In this document: positions 6,370 through 18,268 of the stretch, one piece after another
Position numbering within the stretch: the stretch's first letter is position 1
Layout: every line of letters starts with the position of its first letter
Assembly (NCBI GenBank): GCA_024278755.1
Contig: JAJRSO010000063.1
Span: 1 to 64,000 of the forward strand
DNA: 64,000 nt
Origin: Calditrichota bacterium
GTDB taxonomy: Bacteria > Calditrichota > Calditrichia > Calditrichales > Calditrichaceae
Reading direction: 5' to 3'
The notes under the pieces: model-generated
Told to the model about the DNA's origin: nothing
Databases searched by the model: none
Seen by the model: the letters and a program-made list of their open reading frames with translations, nothing else
Position numbers and translations under genes: made by a program

Positions 6370-8481
6370 ATGCAAACGAATTCCGTTCCTAACCCGACTG
6401 CTTCTTTTCCCTTAAACAATTTTAAAATCATTCCCAATACCTTTCGGAATATGACAAAAGCCGAAATAAGCATTTTAATTCAGAATCAGAATCATGCGGC
6501 AGACTGGGAAACCGTTTTTATCCGTGAACCGTTTGATTTGAATTGTATCCGTAATTCAACCTTTTGGGGAACCGTTTACCTTGACAGTCTTGAACCCGGC
6601 TTTTTGGAATACGATCAAATCCCCCATCCGGTCGGGATTTACGATTCTACTCTTATTTCCTGTGCTATTGGACGTGGCGTTTCCGTGCGTTCGGTAAATT
6701 TGCTGGTTAATTATCAGATAGAAGACGGATGCATTCTTTTTAATATTGATGAACTGAGCGCTTCTGCCGGAACCGGTTTTGGCAACGGCTATTTACGTCC
6801 CGGACAAAAAAAATCTGACCGGTTATGGATAGAAGCGGCCAATGAAAACGGAGGCCGCCGTATTTTACCTTTTGCAGGAATGCTGCCCGCCGATGCGTTT
6901 CTCTGGTCTAAATATCCGCACGATAAACCGCTGCTTAAAAAATTTACCGCCATGACAGACCTACTGGGACAAGAAGAAAAATATGCCTGTGCCCGGGTCG
7001 CAAAAAATTCGGTTATTCGCAACAGCACCGGTATTAAAAATATGCTTTGCGGCGAAAACACGACCATTGAAAGCGCTTTAAATCTTAAAAACATTACCAT
7101 TCAGTCTACCGCAGAAGAGCCCACGTTTATCGGCGCCGGCGTTAATTTAAAAAACGGCGTCATCGGCTATGGAAACACGATTGATTCCAATGTTATTGCC
7201 GAGAATTTTTTAACCGGTCGTAACGTAAAATTGCAATATGGCGTCCGTTTTATCAATACAATCTTGGGGCCCAACTCCACCATTTCCTGCTGTGAGGTGC
7301 TAAGTAATTTAATCTTTCCTTTTCACGAACAGCACCACAACAACTCATTTTTAATTGCCAGTACGGTGATGGGGCAATCCAATATTGCCGCCGGGGCAAC
7401 CATCGGTTCCAACCATAATTCACGGGCCGCAGACGGTGAGATTCTGGCCGAACGCGGATTTTGGCCAGGATTAAACAGTACCTTTAAACACAATTCCAAA
7501 TTTGCGGCCTTTACATTGATTGCCAAAGGGAATTACAATGCCGAACTAAATATTTCCCTGCCCTTTTCCCTGATTAGTCCGGCACAAAACAGCGCAAACG
7601 TACAGGTTTTTCCCGGCTTCTGGTTTAAATATAACATGTATGCCCTGGCTCGTAATACCTGGAAGTTCAAAAAACGAGACAAGCGAAAAATAAAACAGCA
7701 GTTTATCGAAACCGATTACCTGGCTCCGGACACGGTCGAAGAGATGGTTTCCGGAATTTCAATTTTAAAAACCGGTCTAGAGGAAGCGCTGCAACGTCCG
7801 TTGGACCTAGAGGAAATTATCCGGGATTATGTAAAAATTGATAAACAGGTTCATTTGACCCTGGATGGAATGATCAACAAAGGCAAAGCCGAAATCATAA
7901 AACCGGCTCAGGGGATTTATCTGTACCGTATGATGATATTGCTCTATGGCGGTCGTGAACTACTGCGCTTATTGCAAACAGAAGGTCCAAATAATATAAA
8001 GGCGCTGCAAAACACATATAGAGAAGCGCCACGGGACTGGATGAACCTCGGCGGTATGCTTGTGGCGGAAAATGATGTGCGGCAATTGCTCGAAGCGGTA
8101 AAAACAAGCGACTATTCCTGGGAAAAAATGCACCAGGCCTATGCAAAATTGGCAAACGGTTATGCGGAGGCAAAGGCGCGCCATTCCGTGTTTACCCTGT
8201 TGAATCTTTTTGGTCTGTCTGCCGACGTTTTTACAGCGGAACAAATTAAAACTATTTTAGATGAATTTGCCACCGTGGCAGATCAATTATTACACTGGGC
8301 CTATGAATCCCGCAAAAAAGATTATGCCGGAGATTTCCGCATCATGACTTATACAACCAAGGAAGAAATGAACGCCGTTTTGGGCACGATTGAAGAAAAT
8401 GAATTTTTGATCGAATATGAGAAAGAGATGAACGCCTACCAAAAACAGGCAAAAGAAATTGCCCTGACACTCGGCGCTTAA
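6370..8481 (+). CDS. DUF4954 family protein with left-handed beta-helix region
   Basis: A 703-residue protein of the DUF4954 family, found in Bacteroidetes, spirochaetes and relatives. Residues about 60-400 show hexapeptide-like turns (IGAGVNLKNGVIGYGNTI; GPNSTI; GQSNIAAGATIGSN) that indicate a left-handed beta-helix like that in sugar-nucleotide acyl- and nucleotidyltransferases. The C-terminal 280 residues are helical. No signal peptide is seen, so it should be cytoplasmic. No catalytic function has been assigned to the family as far as I know. It sits divergently from a ROK regulator and 17 bp upstream of a LOG-family gene, suggesting a role in sugar or nucleotide-sugar metabolism; that is inference only. 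Confidence 0.85.
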   Translation: MQTNSVPNPTASFPLNNFKIIPNTFRNMTKAEISILIQNQNHAADWETVFIREPFDLNCIRNSTFWGTVYLDSLEPGFLEYDQIPHPVGIYDSTLISCAIGRGVSVRSVNLLVNYQIEDGCILFNIDELSASAGTGFGNGYLRPGQKKSDRLWIEAANENGGRRILPFAGMLPADAFLWSKYPHDKPLLKKFTAMTDLLGQEEKYACARVAKNSVIRNSTGIKNMLCGENTTIESALNLKNITIQSTAEEPTFIGAGVNLKNGVIGYGNTIDSNVIAENFLTGRNVKLQYGVRFINTILGPNSTISCCEVLSNLIFPFHEQHHNNSFLIASTVMGQSNIAAGATIGSNHNSRAADGEILAERGFWPGLNSTFKHNSKFAAFTLIAKGNYNAELNISLPFSLISPAQNSANVQVFPGFWFKYNMYALARNTWKFKKRDKRKIKQQFIETDYLAPDTVEEMVSGISILKTGLEEALQRPLDLEEIIRDYVKIDKQVHLTLDGMINKGKAEIIKPAQGIYLYRMMILLYGGRELLRLLQTEGPNNIKALQNTYREAPRDWMNLGGMLVAENDVRQLLEAVKTSDYSWEKMHQAYAKLANGYAEAKARHSVFTLLNLFGLSADVFTAEQIKTILDEFATVADQLLHWAYESRKKDYAGDFRIMTYTTKEEMNAVLGTIEENEFLIEYEKEMNAYQKQAKEIALTLGA

Positions 8482-9569: not shown

Positions 9570-10691
9570 TTATTCACGTATAAAATCAATAGCCTGCTCA
9601 TAGTATATATAAAACTGGCTGTTTTCCAGAAAACGGTTTATCTCTTTGTCAGTCGCCTGGAATTTCCAGAAATCCATTCCCAGTAAATCCCGACCAAGGG
9701 CTTCGATTACATCACGCATTAGCACAGCTAAAAATAGAGTGTGTTTGTCCGTCCAACCGTCAATGGCCTGCATAGTTACCGAGCATTTGGGTTCAACCGC
9801 AATTCGGATATCGGAAGTTACATCAAAATATTTTTCAAACTTAAAATAACTCTTGTTTAAGGCAACTTGAATGGTACGGGCGCCGGCAAATTTTATAAGT
9901 GAACTGAATTTCTCTTTTATATAACGCTCAAACATATTAATTATGAGGCTGTCTTCCAGTACCTTTTCCGGACCGGCCACTTCTTCTGTCTCCTTAGGTA
10001 ATTTAAAAACACTCGGTTCGATGGTAAAAGTACCCCCTGTCCAGTCAAGAATCTCATCCATGGCTTCATCTTCTTCTTTGCTATCAAATTCCAGCTTATC
10101 AAGCTGCCCTTTGCTGTAAATAAAACAGGCTTCTTTTTCGTTGTAATTTAGGCGTATTTGGCCGGTTAATGAATTTTCTTCCGCATATTTTAACAGTTTA
10201 ATTAAATCGACCTCTGCAAGATTGCCATGCGGCGTAATGCGGTTTTTATAGTAGCGTTCACTGCGCTCCCGTGCTTTATTGGAAAGATTCAGGCGCTGGC
10301 TGAGCATGTGGGTAAGCGATAATGAAATAGCCGGGTTATTCATCACCAGATCGTCAAAATTCTTTTTTTTCACTTCATACAAACTGCAATCCTGCTCGGC
10401 AACCACGGTAGCCGATCGCGGTTCGCCGGTGATCAGGGCCATTTCGCCAAAATAATCGCCCGCTCCGAGGAAAGAAAGCACCACCGGCTCGTCCACGTCC
10501 TTAACATCGGCAACCACCTTCACACGTCCCCGGCGGATGATATACAAACAGTCGCCCACTTCGCCTTCGCTGATAATAATTTCACCCTTAGTTACGGAAA
10601 CAGATTTCAGGTTCTCATCAAGCCGAAGCAGTTCCCCTTCCGGAATGGACTGAAACAGCGGAATTTTTTTTAGGTGCTCAACGCTTTTCAT
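9570..10691 (-). CDS. Cyclic nucleotide-binding domain protein with DUF4388
   Basis: A 373-residue cytoplasmic signalling protein. Residues about 10-125 are a cNMP-binding domain with the phosphate-binding cassette GEMALITGEPRSATV, which keeps the Glu and Arg that contact a cyclic nucleotide. A DUF4388 (PatA N-terminal type) domain follows at about 155-240 (LTGQIRLNYNEKEACFIYSKG). The C-terminal 130 residues are not recognised. No DNA-binding domain is present, so it is not a Crp-type regulator. The gene starts 3 nt after its paralogue stops, and the two share the same first two domains, indicating tandem duplication with different C-termini. Ligand and output are unknown. Confidence 0.88.
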   Translation of the reverse strand: MKSVEHLKKIPLFQSIPEGELLRLDENLKSVSVTKGEIIISEGEVGDCLYIIRRGRVKVVADVKDVDEPVVLSFLGAGDYFGEMALITGEPRSATVVAEQDCSLYEVKKKNFDDLVMNNPAISLSLTHMLSQRLNLSNKARERSERYYKNRITPHGNLAEVDLIKLLKYAEENSLTGQIRLNYNEKEACFIYSKGQLDKLEFDSKEEDEAMDEILDWTGGTFTIEPSVFKLPKETEEVAGPEKVLEDSLIINMFERYIKEKFSSLIKFAGARTIQVALNKSYFKFEKYFDVTSDIRIAVEPKCSVTMQAIDGWTDKHTLFLAVLMRDVIEALGRDLLGMDFWKFQATDKEINRFLENSQFYIYYEQAIDFIRE

Positions 10692-10694
10692 AGC

Positions 10695-11783
10695 TTAGAT
10701 AAAGTTCTCAACCAGTTTTACGATTTCGCTTACTTCATGCGTTTTCGTCAGTTCTGCGTTACCGATATTTTTCAGTTTTTGTTCGAATTCTGCCCGAACC
10801 GAATTATCGGTGATAAAGATAAACGGAATATCTGCTTTTTCGCGGACTTTTTCGGCAAACAAATCGCCGCCCCCATCGGGAAGCTTAATATCCGTGATAA
10901 TTACATCGATGGTCTGTTTGCCAATAATCTCAAGAGAACCTTCAATATTCTTTGCCGACGCCACCCGGTACCCCAATCCTGTAAAGGCCCGCTCCACAAT
11001 TTTGCGCACTACAAGCGAATTATTGGCAATTAATATCGTCTTTTCTTCTTCCGGCTCTTCCGGAGTTGTTTCGTTACCCATGGTCAGCGGACGTACCGTA
11101 ATTTTAAAACTGCCGTCGTTCCAGTCTATCATTTTATCTAACGCTTTGTCATCCTGTAAACTGCCGAGTTTTACCGACTGCAATCGTCCGGAATCAAATT
11201 CAAAAACACCCTCTTCTCCGCCGCTTTTAACCGACATGGTTCCGGTAACCGAATTGGATTCGCAAAAACTAATCAAATCCACTAACGGCACTTCGCTTAA
11301 CTGTCCGGAAGGCCCCGCTTGTTCTGTAGCCGACTTTCCCGGTTTGGGCATTGTTATCGCTTTTTGAAGGGTTTCTTTGAGACGTTTACTAACGATTTTG
11401 CCCATGCTTAATGAAATAGACGGGAATTTTTCAAGGATAACGTCAAAATCTTTTTTTTGCAGCACAAAGGTTTCGGCGTCTTCCGTTGCAATCACAGATG
11501 CCGACCGGGTTTCACCGGTAAGTAAAGCCATTTCGCCAAAATAATCGCCGGATTTGAGAGTAGCGACCACCTGTTCGTTTTCACCGTTTTCGTCATAAAT
11601 ACATATATTTACACTGCCGCTGATGATAATGAACATTTCATCACCAGGATCACCGATTTTACAAATGGTTTCTTTTCCTGAAAAAGTTTTGAATTTTAAG
11701 CGTTCGACGATAAAATCGATACTATCTTTCCCCAACATACGAAAGATGGGTACTTGTTTTAAAATTTTTCCGATTTGAATCAT
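10695..11783 (-). CDS. Cyclic nucleotide-binding/DUF4388 protein with receiver-like C-terminus
   Basis: A 362-residue protein: cNMP-binding domain (about 8-125, with GEMALLTGETRSAS), DUF4388 (about 155-240), an acidic linker, then a receiver-like domain (about 247-362). In the receiver, Asp298 (IITDIKLPDGGG) and Lys347 match phospho-acceptor and signalling Lys, but the usual acidic pair is replaced by Asn254-Asn255 (ILIANNS), so metal-dependent phosphorylation is doubtful. I start at the ATG at 11783 with GAGAGG about 10 nt upstream; a TTG nine codons earlier lacks support. It is the second gene of a three-gene operon and probably works with its downstream paralogue. Confidence 0.88.
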   Translation of the reverse strand: MIQIGKILKQVPIFRMLGKDSIDFIVERLKFKTFSGKETICKIGDPGDEMFIIISGSVNICIYDENGENEQVVATLKSGDYFGEMALLTGETRSASVIATEDAETFVLQKKDFDVILEKFPSISLSMGKIVSKRLKETLQKAITMPKPGKSATEQAGPSGQLSEVPLVDLISFCESNSVTGTMSVKSGGEEGVFEFDSGRLQSVKLGSLQDDKALDKMIDWNDGSFKITVRPLTMGNETTPEEPEEEKTILIANNSLVVRKIVERAFTGLGYRVASAKNIEGSLEIIGKQTIDVIITDIKLPDGGGDLFAEKVREKADIPFIFITDNSVRAEFEQKLKNIGNAELTKTHEVSEIVKLVENFI

Positions 11784-11816
11784 AAAGAAGGTCCTCTCAA
11801 AGACAGGCAATTTAAA

Positions 11817-11996
11817 TTACCGTAAATACTGGTAAAGCGTATAGGCCACAATAAACAGAAAAAAATACCACCAGACAGAGCGCATTTTTTTTCGCGGAAG
11901 GCGGTCAAATTCGATTCGTTTTTTTCCGTCCTTCGTGCCATGCAGACGGTATGCCAGATCAAACGTGCGGTGTTTTTTCCGATTAAAGACTTTCAT
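11817..11996 (-). CDS. Small single-span membrane protein (59 aa), unknown function
   Basis: A 59-codon frame encoding a protein with a highly basic N-terminal 40 residues (MKVFNRKKHRTFDLAYRL at the start; LPRKKMR before the membrane) and a C-terminal hydrophobic stretch (VWWYFFLFIVAYTLYQYL). The charge pattern predicts N-in, C-out topology. A TTGACA-17-TATCTT promoter lies about 50 bp upstream and the next gene starts 33 bp downstream, so it is the first gene of the cNMP/DUF4388 operon. The ribosome-binding site is poor (AGGG almost touching the ATG). I do not recognise the family; the reading frame, composition and context make it more likely than not a real gene. Confidence 0.6.
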   Translation of the reverse strand: MKVFNRKKHRTFDLAYRLHGTKDGKKRIEFDRLPRKKMRSVWWYFFLFIVAYTLYQYLR

Positions 11997-12049
11997 ACCC
12001 TGCTCTGTATTCGTACCATTATGTAAAACTTTAGCTTTTAGCGTGTAAA

Positions 12050-12078
12050 AAGATAGCCAAATGCTTTTTGGGTGTCAA
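12050..12078 (-). promoter_or_regulatory. Sigma-70 promoter of the cNMP/DUF4388 operon
   Basis: On the minus strand: a perfect TTGACA at 12078-12073, a 17-nt spacer and TATCTT at 12055-12050. Transcription would start near 12043, giving a leader of about 47 nt before the small membrane-protein ATG. It is one of the two best sigma-70 matches I found in the window. Confidence 0.7.
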
Positions 12079-15458: not shown

Positions 15459-17584
15459 TTATTTTCTACCATCGTTAGTGTCCGTACTTTGTTTTTCTTT
15501 TTGAAAAGCAGGTAAAATAATCAAAAATTCGGTGCCTTTCCCTTCTTTGCTCACCACGTCAATCTTCCCTCCGTGCTCTTTTATTATTTGGTACACAATG
15601 GATAAACCGAGCCCGGTACCGGTCGATTTAGAGGAATAAAAAGGGTCAAATATTTTTTTGCACACTTTTTGAGAGATTCCAATTCCGGTATCTTTTACAA
15701 TTATCTGCACAAACGAATCGGATAACAGCCCGGAGGCCGGTTTACGCCGATCGACAATAGGATTCGAATAGACGGTATTCATGGCCTTAATTTCCAATAT
15801 GCCTCCGTCCGGCATGGCGTCAGCCGCATTTAAAAATAAATTCAAAAAAACCTGTTGAATCTGGTTGGCATCCACAAAGACGTCGGCTAAATCCGGTGCA
15901 TATTTTTGCTGAAATACAATCTTTTTCTCGTTTAATTTCCGATCAATGAGCGGAATAACTTCATCAATTATTTTGCGGATATAAACGGGGGCCGGGTCCG
16001 GCAGGTTTGGTCTGGCATAGGTAAAAAAAGCTTTCAGCAGCGTAGTAAGCCGGTTTACCTGGCGCAGGATGCGCTGAATATATTCCGTCTTTTGTGTATC
16101 GTCTTCCAACTGCTCTTCAAGCGACTGTACCATCGCTTTTATACCGGCCAGCGGATTGCGGATTTCATGGGCAATTCCGGAGCTTAAGGCGCCCAGCGAA
16201 GCCATTCTATCCATATGAACGATTTCGGCCTGTATACGCTTGGTTCGTGAAATTTCAGAAAAAACCAGGATATAACGTTCTTTGCTTTTCTTTTCCGGAA
16301 ATGTATAAATCGACAAACCGATATAAAAATGAGGAATCTGCGGGTCCTGAAGCTGCAGTTCTTCCCGAATAACGGGAAACTTGTTTTTTTGAATCAGATT
16401 GTCTAAAAAAGCAAAGGCTTCACGGTCAAACAATTTTGTCAGATCGGCGAAGGGCGGTTCCGATTTTTTTTATTTAAAATTTTAAACGAAGCCGGATTCA
16501 TATAAAACACATCAAACGAACTGTCAAAAACAATGGTTCCGAAATGTACCGAATCCATAATATGCTTTAGCATTGTCCATTCCTGCACAATTACATCATT
16601 CTTTGCCGCAAGCACAGAACCGGCCGGCGCCTTTCCCTCTCCAAAATCTTCCAACTGTATTTTTTCCAGATGGTAAGTGATTTTATTAGCAGCAATCATA
16701 CTAAACGAGAGATCGTTTTCGGTGAACTCATCCCGATAGAGTTTATTTATCAGAATAATACCGGCGCGGGGTTCGTGAAAAACGGTAACCGGGATAAATA
16801 GCAGGCTGAATATTTTAATACCCAGGGCTTCCTCCAGCTCCAGAACAAACGGATCCTGCAGCGCGTTTCCCTCAAAAATTTGCGGGTAGTTTTCGGTTAA
16901 CAGCCGTTTAACCGAACTTTTTTGCAGACCAAACAGATGTTTATGCAGTAGATTCCGGCTGCTGTGTTCAAAAATATTAAGTGCGAGGATATCCCGCTTT
17001 TTATTATAAGAAGTAAAAAGCGCCGTTTCCACTGCCAGGGCCAGTTCCAGCCGCCGGATAAAGGATTGTTCCAAATGCTGTAACAGGCTTGCTTCATCGT
17101 TAAACTGAACAATACGCTCCATTTCCAGAAGCTCATCCATGTGCGAAAGTAGTTTTTTTTCACCCTCGATGATATCTTTATACAGGATATTCTTCCGTTC
17201 GATGGCGCTCTGATACAAGGCATTGTTCACCATCGAAATAAAAGCAAAGCGATCCGCCGGATCGATAACGATAAAGTTATTGGGATTTTTATAGATTTGA
17301 CGTTTGAGTGTTTCCTGATTAATCGAAATAATAAAAATAAAGGAGATATTTTCCAGCTTATTATAACTGCGGATTTCCGAAAGTGCGCTATAATTTAAAT
17401 CGGGATTGGACACACAATCGATAAGCACAACATCAAAGGGAATTTCAAGCAATTTATCGGTATAGGCTTGCGCAAAACTTAAAATATGCTCTTTATTCCG
17501 CGTATCCTGCAATAAGCCGGCGAGAAATCCGGAACGGTTTAAATCATCGGATACGATAGCAATATTGTAATGTTGTTGCAACAT
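15459..17584 (-). CDS. Sensor histidine kinase (receiver-like, GAF, PAS, HisKA, HATPase), apparent frameshift
   Basis: Two adjacent frames together encode one hybrid sensor kinase. The N-terminal frame (16439-17584) has a receiver-like fold with VVLIDC near residue 55, a coiled segment and a GAF domain (about 165-315). The PAS domain begins there (FGTIVFDSSFDVFYMNPAS) and continues in the second frame, which has the H-box SSGIAHEIRNPLAGIK, the N-box NLFLNAADAMPDGG and the G-boxes DTGIGIS and GTGLGLSIVY. The break is in an A8 run (T8 at 16464-16471 on the + strand); nine As would join the frames into about 708 residues. It follows a Crp-type gene by 6 bp. Sequencing error, mutation or transcriptional slippage are all possible. 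Confidence 0.88.
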
Positions 17585-17590
17585 GAAAAC

Positions 17591-18268
17591 TTACGAAAAA
17601 TCCTGTCTGAACCTATCATAGTCCAGAATCAGCAGCTTACTGCCTTCTTTTTTTACATATCCGAGCTGTCCCAGTGTTTTAATGACTCTGGAAATAGTCT
17701 CGCGGCTTGTTCCGGCCATATTGGCCAAATCCTGTTGCGGAGGCAGATGCGGAATTTCTACGATTCCCTGCTTAATAATACCCGAATCATCGGCAATACG
17801 AAGCAAGGTTGAAGCGACGCGTCCGAGCGCATTTTGAAGCGACAGACTTTTAATCTGTGAATCGCTTCTGCGTAGCCGGTGCGCCAGCTCTTTTAATAAA
17901 TTTATGGCAATCTGCGGATAGTCGTGCAGCATTTGCAAAAAGTTTTCGCGGCGGATGATCAGCATTTCGGTATCTTCGAGGGTAATCGCATTGGCGCTGC
18001 GTGTCTGACCGTCCAATATGGCCATTTCGCCAAAAAAATCACCATCTACTAAAATAGAAAGAATCACTTCCCGCCCTTCGTCGCTAATACGCGATATTTT
18101 TACTCGTCCCTTTAAAATAATAAACATGGTCGAACCGACTTCCTCTTCGATAAGGACCATATTATCTTTTTTAAAGGTCTGCCGCACACTCACTTTTGTA
18201 AGATTGTTCAGTTCATCTTCTTTAAGTTCAGAAAAAAGCGGAATTAGCTTTAAATCTATTGGATCCAT
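17591..18268 (-). CDS. Crp/Fnr family transcriptional regulator
   Basis: A 225-residue DNA-binding regulator: cNMP-binding domain at about 10-125 with GEMAILDGQTRSAN, a dimerisation helix, and a C-terminal winged helix (about 148-220) whose recognition helix lies in LANMAGTSRETISRVIKTL, the Crp-type pattern with the DNA-contacting RETxSR. No N-terminal cysteine cluster is present, so it is not an oxygen-sensing FNR. It lies between the SPOR-protein gene and the histidine-kinase gene with gaps of 9 and 6 bp, making a common transcript likely. The effector is not evident. Confidence 0.93.
   Translation of the reverse strand: MDPIDLKLIPLFSELKEDELNNLTKVSVRQTFKKDNMVLIEEEVGSTMFIILKGRVKISRISDEGREVILSILVDGDFFGEMAILDGQTRSANAITLEDTEMLIIRRENFLQMLHDYPQIAINLLKELAHRLRRSDSQIKSLSLQNALGRVASTLLRIADDSGIIKQGIVEIPHLPPQQDLANMAGTSRETISRVIKTLGQLGYVKKEGSKLLILDYDRFRQDFS

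Follow-up and report, generated by a model that had tools for sequence, protein, structure and literature searches.

A three-gene locus conserved in Calditrichota that may encode a membrane-tethered cyclic-mononucleotide receptor acting by protein contacts

Three protein components are co-inherited and contiguous in Calditrichota, a phylum that has been little studied: a small membrane protein (sm), a protein (A) that joins a cyclic-nucleotide-binding domain, a DUF4388 domain and a pseudo-receiver, and a C domain that is found either on its own or joined to a second cNMP-DUF4388 unit (the protein B). We put at about even the chances that this trio is a conserved module of the phylum, a cyclic-mononucleotide receptor tethered to the membrane and acting by protein contacts rather than by transcription or phosphotransfer, for which we infer ligand, tethering and output. 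As almost every relative sampled retains the trio, it is probably a signalling module, and one so far undescribed.

The locus lies in the window, which is the whole stretch of 64,000 nucleotides that was analysed. All three open reading frames were confirmed on the minus strand, where they form the three-gene operon that a sequence-only reading had proposed, in the tight order sm, A, B; the spacings, 33 nt between sm and A and 3 nt between A and B, agree with its statement that all lie within 33 bp. The lineage is Calditrichota, not the delta-type setting which that reading had in mind. The start of A was taken as an ATG (the mechanical frame begins at a TTG, 11810), and the Pfam domains of A and B all scored above curated cut-offs. 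The features are as follows.

12050..12078, minus strand: promoter-like site TTGACA-17-TATCTT, 10/12 matches, ending 54 nt before the sm start codon
11817..11996, minus strand: sm, 59 amino acids, with a profile match in 35/40 phylum genomes
10695..11783, minus strand: gene A, 362 amino acids, cNMP_binding, DUF4388 (PATAN) and pseudo-receiver (Pfam)
11427..11690, minus strand: cyclic-nucleotide-binding domain of A, cassette FGEMALLTGETRSA, cNMP_binding 84.6 bits
11064..11309, minus strand: DUF4388 of A, 35.2 bits (cut-off 25)
10710..11036, minus strand: receiver-like domain of A, Response_reg 54.1 bits
9570..10691, minus strand: gene B, 373 amino acids, cNMP_binding, DUF4388 and C domain (Pfam)
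10335..10601, minus strand: cyclic-nucleotide-binding domain of B, cassette FGEMALITGEPRSA, cNMP_binding 91.0 bits
9957..10229, minus strand: DUF4388 of B, 26.3 bits, barely above the cut-off of 25
9573..9974, minus strand: C domain of B, about 134 amino acids, homologous to a stand-alone protein of about 130 amino acids in three other families
15459..17584, minus strand: histidine kinase gene of the upstream cluster (context), in two frames in the window
17591..18268, minus strand: CRP-type regulator with HTH (context), upstream cluster in families f1 and f2, 82-91% identical in nine relatives

One consensus promoter had been proposed for the operon. A promoter-like site does precede sm, downstream of an OPT transporter gene, but the 3-kb region holds 13 such sites against 5.5 expected, so that the match is weak taken alone. 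Inspection by eye of upstream DNA found a TTGACT or TTGACA hexamer at a comparable place in 5/7 relatives (L026, L028, L029, L031 and L032), which gives the promoter weak support.

The small membrane protein was found in the identical 35/40 phylum genomes as A, and all 23 high-quality assemblies (at least 90% complete and at most 5% contaminated) contain A. From the five genomes without A (G001, G005, G035, G037 and G038), whose completeness is 72-88%, sm is likewise missing. In 34 of the 35 relatives with both, sm lies directly before A on the same contig and strand, the 35th being split by contig ends; conservation of the gene order, the check that the sequence-only reading had set for itself, is thus borne out. 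The two profile matches are 16-37 nt apart in 32 genomes; in the other two the gaps measure 188 and 280 nt. The C domain was detected in 34/40 phylum genomes. Of the 35 genomes with A, 31 have it on the contig that carries A, in the downstream direction, and two (G011 and G013) have it on another contig; in G038, which lacks A, it stands at a contig start. It was not found in G025 and G030, both of high quality, and that these two genomes keep sm and A without it counts against the module.

Two versions of the third gene exist. All 22 genomes with A in families f1, f2 and f4 have B in this place (one copy is interrupted by an internal stop, another truncated where its contig ends), and here the earlier description of tandem paralogues holds; in f3, f5 and f6 that description fails, the third gene being a stand-alone protein of about 130 amino acids in 11/13 genomes with A. 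A profile of this protein matches the C-terminal domain of B alone (hhalign probability 99.2 over 117 columns), and the occurrence of the domain in free and fused form argues that it works with a cNMP-DUF4388 unit. In a tree built from 27 A and 17 B sequences, after near-identical and truncated ones had been dropped from 31 and 20, A and B formed separate groups with support of 100/100. A tree placing B with the A sequences of f1, f2 and f4 was not rejected (p-AU 0.215), so that either B was gained or its front part was lost.

The paralogues A and B had been said to differ at their C-termini, which is true, though it had been missed that the C-terminus of A is a receiver domain, and that of B had been left without identity. 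No receiver match was obtained for B in Pfam. Its C domain had no Pfam match above cut-off, and the stand-alone relative had none in NCBIfam. AlphaFold2 gave a confident model of the domain (pLDDT 91.8, pTM 0.86). A Foldseek search of the PDB with this model returned no matches at E 0.001 (best E 1.3), and VIA-align gave a best Z of 3.9 over 91 residues; chains of adenylyl and guanylyl cyclases fill many rows of both structure lists, at an insignificant level. With no convincing PDB match, the fold may be either new or known. A profile search of PDB sequences gave a single match, at E 0.67, which we took as chance.

In the cyclic-nucleotide-binding domains of A and B, the Glu and Arg of the phosphate cassette (FGEM[AS]L...RSA) are intact in all 31 A and all 20 B sequences. 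These two residues mark the cassette of cAMP or cGMP receptors; even with the cassette intact, A and B may have some other ligand than cAMP or cGMP. The window genome encodes three proteins with a Guanylate_cyc (class III cyclase) domain, and a ligand is therefore likely to be available. Neither A nor B matched an HTH family at E 0.1, whereas the neighbouring CRP gene did, and Pfam gave no HTH or other DNA-binding match in either protein, as had been read from the sequence.

The receiver positions of A were assigned by alignment with another receiver encoded in the window, one that is intact. The acidic pair is replaced by N254-N255, and the phosphoacceptor-equivalent D298 is kept. Among the 31 A sequences, the metal-binding positions are N/S/I and N/H/T/A and acidic in none, the phosphoacceptor Asp is invariant, the Thr/Ser position is T or S in 24 (lost in seven), and the Lys position is K in 18 (lost in 13). 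Because both metal-binding acidic residues are lost throughout, the domain is a pseudo-receiver and cannot be canonical, and a phosphotransfer "relay" is unlikely. The sequence-only reading, which had envisaged a membrane-linked cyclic-nucleotide relay without direct transcription output, is supported in part: the gene order, the intact cassette and the absence of a DNA-binding domain agree with it, with membrane linkage and ligand binding still putative. Pseudo-receivers are described in the available part of PMC12632262 by their loss of active-site residues, and their switching is called a mystery there; a ligand domain in cis is one candidate switch for that of A.

The invariant D298 can also be read in another way, namely that A is a two-component output phosphorylated at this residue by the histidine kinase encoded upstream, with the cyclic nucleotide merely modulating the response. 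A histidine kinase lies upstream in 9/9 f1/f2 loci with enough flank, and substitutions in pseudo-receivers do not always abolish phosphorylation, according to the part of PMC12632262 available. We nevertheless hold phosphorylation by this kinase to be improbable, given the non-acidic metal-binding positions and the patchy Lys. Moreover, no relative of the kinase was found near A in nine f3/f5/f6 loci, which still keep the receiver, and the kinase gene of the window is broken into two frames. Its orthologues in relatives are single open reading frames of about 700 amino acids; the frame break in the window, which has an A-rich run (near 16460-16474) close to it, may be either an assembly error or a real loss.

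The DUF4388-receiver part of A matched at full length only in 34 loci (L058-L091), mostly in records named Calditrichota, Calditrichia or Caldithrix, with a few labelled just "bacterium", KSB1 or Caldisericaceae; the other 45 loci kept match essentially the receiver alone. No relative of this part was found in viral contigs. The AlphaFold2 model of A had a low pTM (0.40), and the arrangement of its domains is therefore not predicted. CRP-type chains were the best structural matches of the model, and PDB sequence and structure searches with A gave cyclic-nucleotide and receiver matches among the matches listed and none usable for DUF4388. The same genome encodes five further DUF4388 proteins (L001-L005). 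In two of these the receiver comes first and has its acidic pair intact; two of the five, of about 490-510 amino acids, are in tandem on contig C50.

The frame for sm had been read as a membrane protein of 59 residues, and its presence in 35/40 phylum genomes together with third-position-biased changes (7/3/23 by codon position in one close pair) indicates that it is a real gene. Its N-terminal part is very basic (net charge +6 to +11 across the Calditrichota rows, a positive-inside pattern) and is followed by a single C-terminal membrane segment at residues of about 38-54. The hydrophobicity of the window protein is modest, with a mean Kyte-Doolittle value of 1.31 over 17 residues, compared with 1.7-3.2 in the other 18 family rows. 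Such a layout suggests an anchor whose soluble part is cytoplasmic. The family gave nothing above cut-off in Pfam (five members searched) or NCBIfam (four members).

The genes around the trio differ between f1/f2/f4 and f3/f5/f6, and the trio itself is kept together. Most f1/f2 loci have the order SPOR-CRP-kinase-(TauE)-(OPT)-trio-LOG-DUF4954, f3/f5 loci have orders of the type recombinase-trio-serS, and G029 has recombinase-sm-A-C-mutL-miaA, where recombinase, serS and miaA are names that we assigned by our own reading of the sequences. The CRP-type regulator at 17591-18268 is more conserved than the genes adjoining it, and is possibly the main transcriptional cyclic-nucleotide receptor of f1 and f2. 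On the plus strand, 6370-8481 encodes a large protein in which DUF4954 and DUF6819 were recognised, together with a weak match to a left-handed helix; this gene adjoins a LOG-like gene and is kept beside the trio in most f1/f2 loci.

Relatives of sm also occur outside Calditrichota. The first profile gave weak matches in most Bacteroidota-type genomes, and these became clear once Balneolota and KSB1 rows had been added. Relatives were found in 43/59 sampled genomes of the KSB1 phylum (E 1.6e-6 or better; a 44th, at E 0.0056, was left out of the count) and in 34/99 genomes of the Aliifodinibius phylum (Balneolota/Bacteroidota-type; all at E 2.4e-8 or better, with a further five between E 4e-4 and 0.01 left out). 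Among 191 genomes outside Calditrichota drawn across the domain, only nine had a relative, two of which share coordinates with KSB1 matches already counted. The neighbour counts in these two phyla are raw counts of events that are not independent. In 27/43 KSB1 genomes, sm is immediately followed on its own strand by a gene for a class III nucleotide cyclase, and the seven of these cyclases that were domain-scanned all have HAMP and Guanylate_cyc; mutL follows directly or closely in 9/43, and other genes in 7/43. The gene directly after sm is mutL in 15/20 loci fetched from the Aliifodinibius phylum, where 20 of the 34 genomes with a relative were inspected. Two of the pre-mutL members were scanned and had no NCBIfam match.

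That sm also precedes mutL in Bacteroidota-type genomes means that its link to cyclic nucleotides may be positional. It might then be a bystander, an old housekeeping membrane protein of the wider group, usually found beside mutL, with A and C inserted into the locus; the mutL neighbours in both outside groups and the order sm-A-C-mutL of G029 are what this account would explain. We consider it somewhat unlikely, as mutL adjoins the trio in only 1/20 inspected Calditrichota loci, sm and A stay together in all contiguous cases with mostly very short gaps, and the new neighbour of sm in KSB1 is again a cyclic-nucleotide gene. The family thus adjoins such a gene in two phyla, a maker in KSB1 and a reader in Calditrichota. 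From this one could go further and regard sm as a general membrane dock for cyclic-mononucleotide signalling in the wider group, placed with the synthesising enzyme in KSB1 and, in Calditrichota, with the receptor and a partner domain that has no recognised relative. We offer this extension as speculative and rather improbable; if true, the messenger would be made or read at a fixed membrane site, in principle like anchored protein kinase A.

Two further observations concern the outside loci. The sm-cyclase pair of KSB1 (L164, L204-L233) is often preceded by a gene for D-Ala-D-Ala carboxypeptidase or a MazG-like one, and is followed by a TPR protein. In Balneolota/Bacteroidota-type loci (L150, L151, L184-L203), a small basic single-pass membrane protein stands directly before mutL.

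If the trio is a receptor module, sm would be an inner-membrane protein that keeps its basic N-terminus on the cytoplasmic side and tethers A. Binding of cAMP or cGMP to A and B would alter the packing of the cyclic-nucleotide, DUF4388 and pseudo-receiver or C domains, and this repacking would open or close a contact surface for a partner located at the membrane. The C domain would be a trans partner of A in one half of the phylum and, in the other, be wired to a receptor unit of its own, that of B.

The partner might be the pilus motor, with the DUF4388 (PATAN) of A binding PilB or PilT in a cyclic-nucleotide-dependent manner, as a PatA/PixE-like form of pilus control. PATAN regulators of Synechocystis contact PilB according to the available parts of PMC7690835 and PMC10519157, and a cluster of type IV pilus genes is present in C. 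abyssi according to that of PMC5317091; PilT-family proteins scored above cut-off in 29/40 genomes. However, G008 (94% complete) and G022 (92% complete) keep sm, A and B, and a search for a PilT/PilB-class match gave none in G022 and only one of 6.8e-5 in G008, which argues that the pilus is not the sole target unless the assemblies miss it. No pilus gene was recognised adjoining the trio in the inspected loci, and the role could instead fall to other DUF4388 proteins that the genome encodes, two of which have intact receivers. We therefore regard pilus control as an unlikely function of A.

For DUF4388, the literature searched gave one paper, PMC8756737; three others that came up concern different subjects, judging by their titles. 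Within the literature searched, from which subscription journals mostly fall outside, no title or abstract described a protein like A, and nothing was found that joins PATAN with a cyclic-nucleotide-binding protein and a response regulator; the suggestion that the system is undescribed fits this result. The trio consists mostly of known domains in a new arrangement, together with two unnamed families, sm and C, for which it provides a first functional context. Receptors found across a phylum, lacking a DNA-binding part and tied to a membrane protein, make non-transcriptional, confined cyclic-nucleotide signalling directly testable. They also offer a clear case for the question of pseudo-receiver switching, for which an adjoining ligand-binding domain, in place of phosphate, is the candidate here.

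Discussions of bacterial cAMP usually have it act through transcription factors of the CRP type. The CRP/FNR proteins share with A and B the N-terminal cyclic-nucleotide domain, whereas A and B have no HTH and carry DUF4388 and a pseudo-receiver or C domain in its place. In eukaryotes, regulatory subunits of protein kinase A with membrane anchors provide a receptor that is held at the membrane and acts by protein contact. The trio resembles them by analogy in these two respects but has no kinase, and we claim no homology beyond the cyclic-nucleotide domain. In PatA, DUF4388 is followed by a CheY-like receiver. The cyanobacterial proteins PatA, PixG and PixE share this order and the lack of a DNA-binding domain with A; A is set apart by an extra cyclic-nucleotide domain at its N-terminus and by the loss of the acidic pair from its receiver, and no pilus or chemotaxis genes were recognised adjoining it. 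With the pseudo-receivers described in the available part of PMC12632262, A shares a Pfam Response_reg match and the loss of key active-site residues; the DD1 position is non-acidic in only about 20% of those proteins, and A differs in having lost both acidic positions with the Asp invariant.
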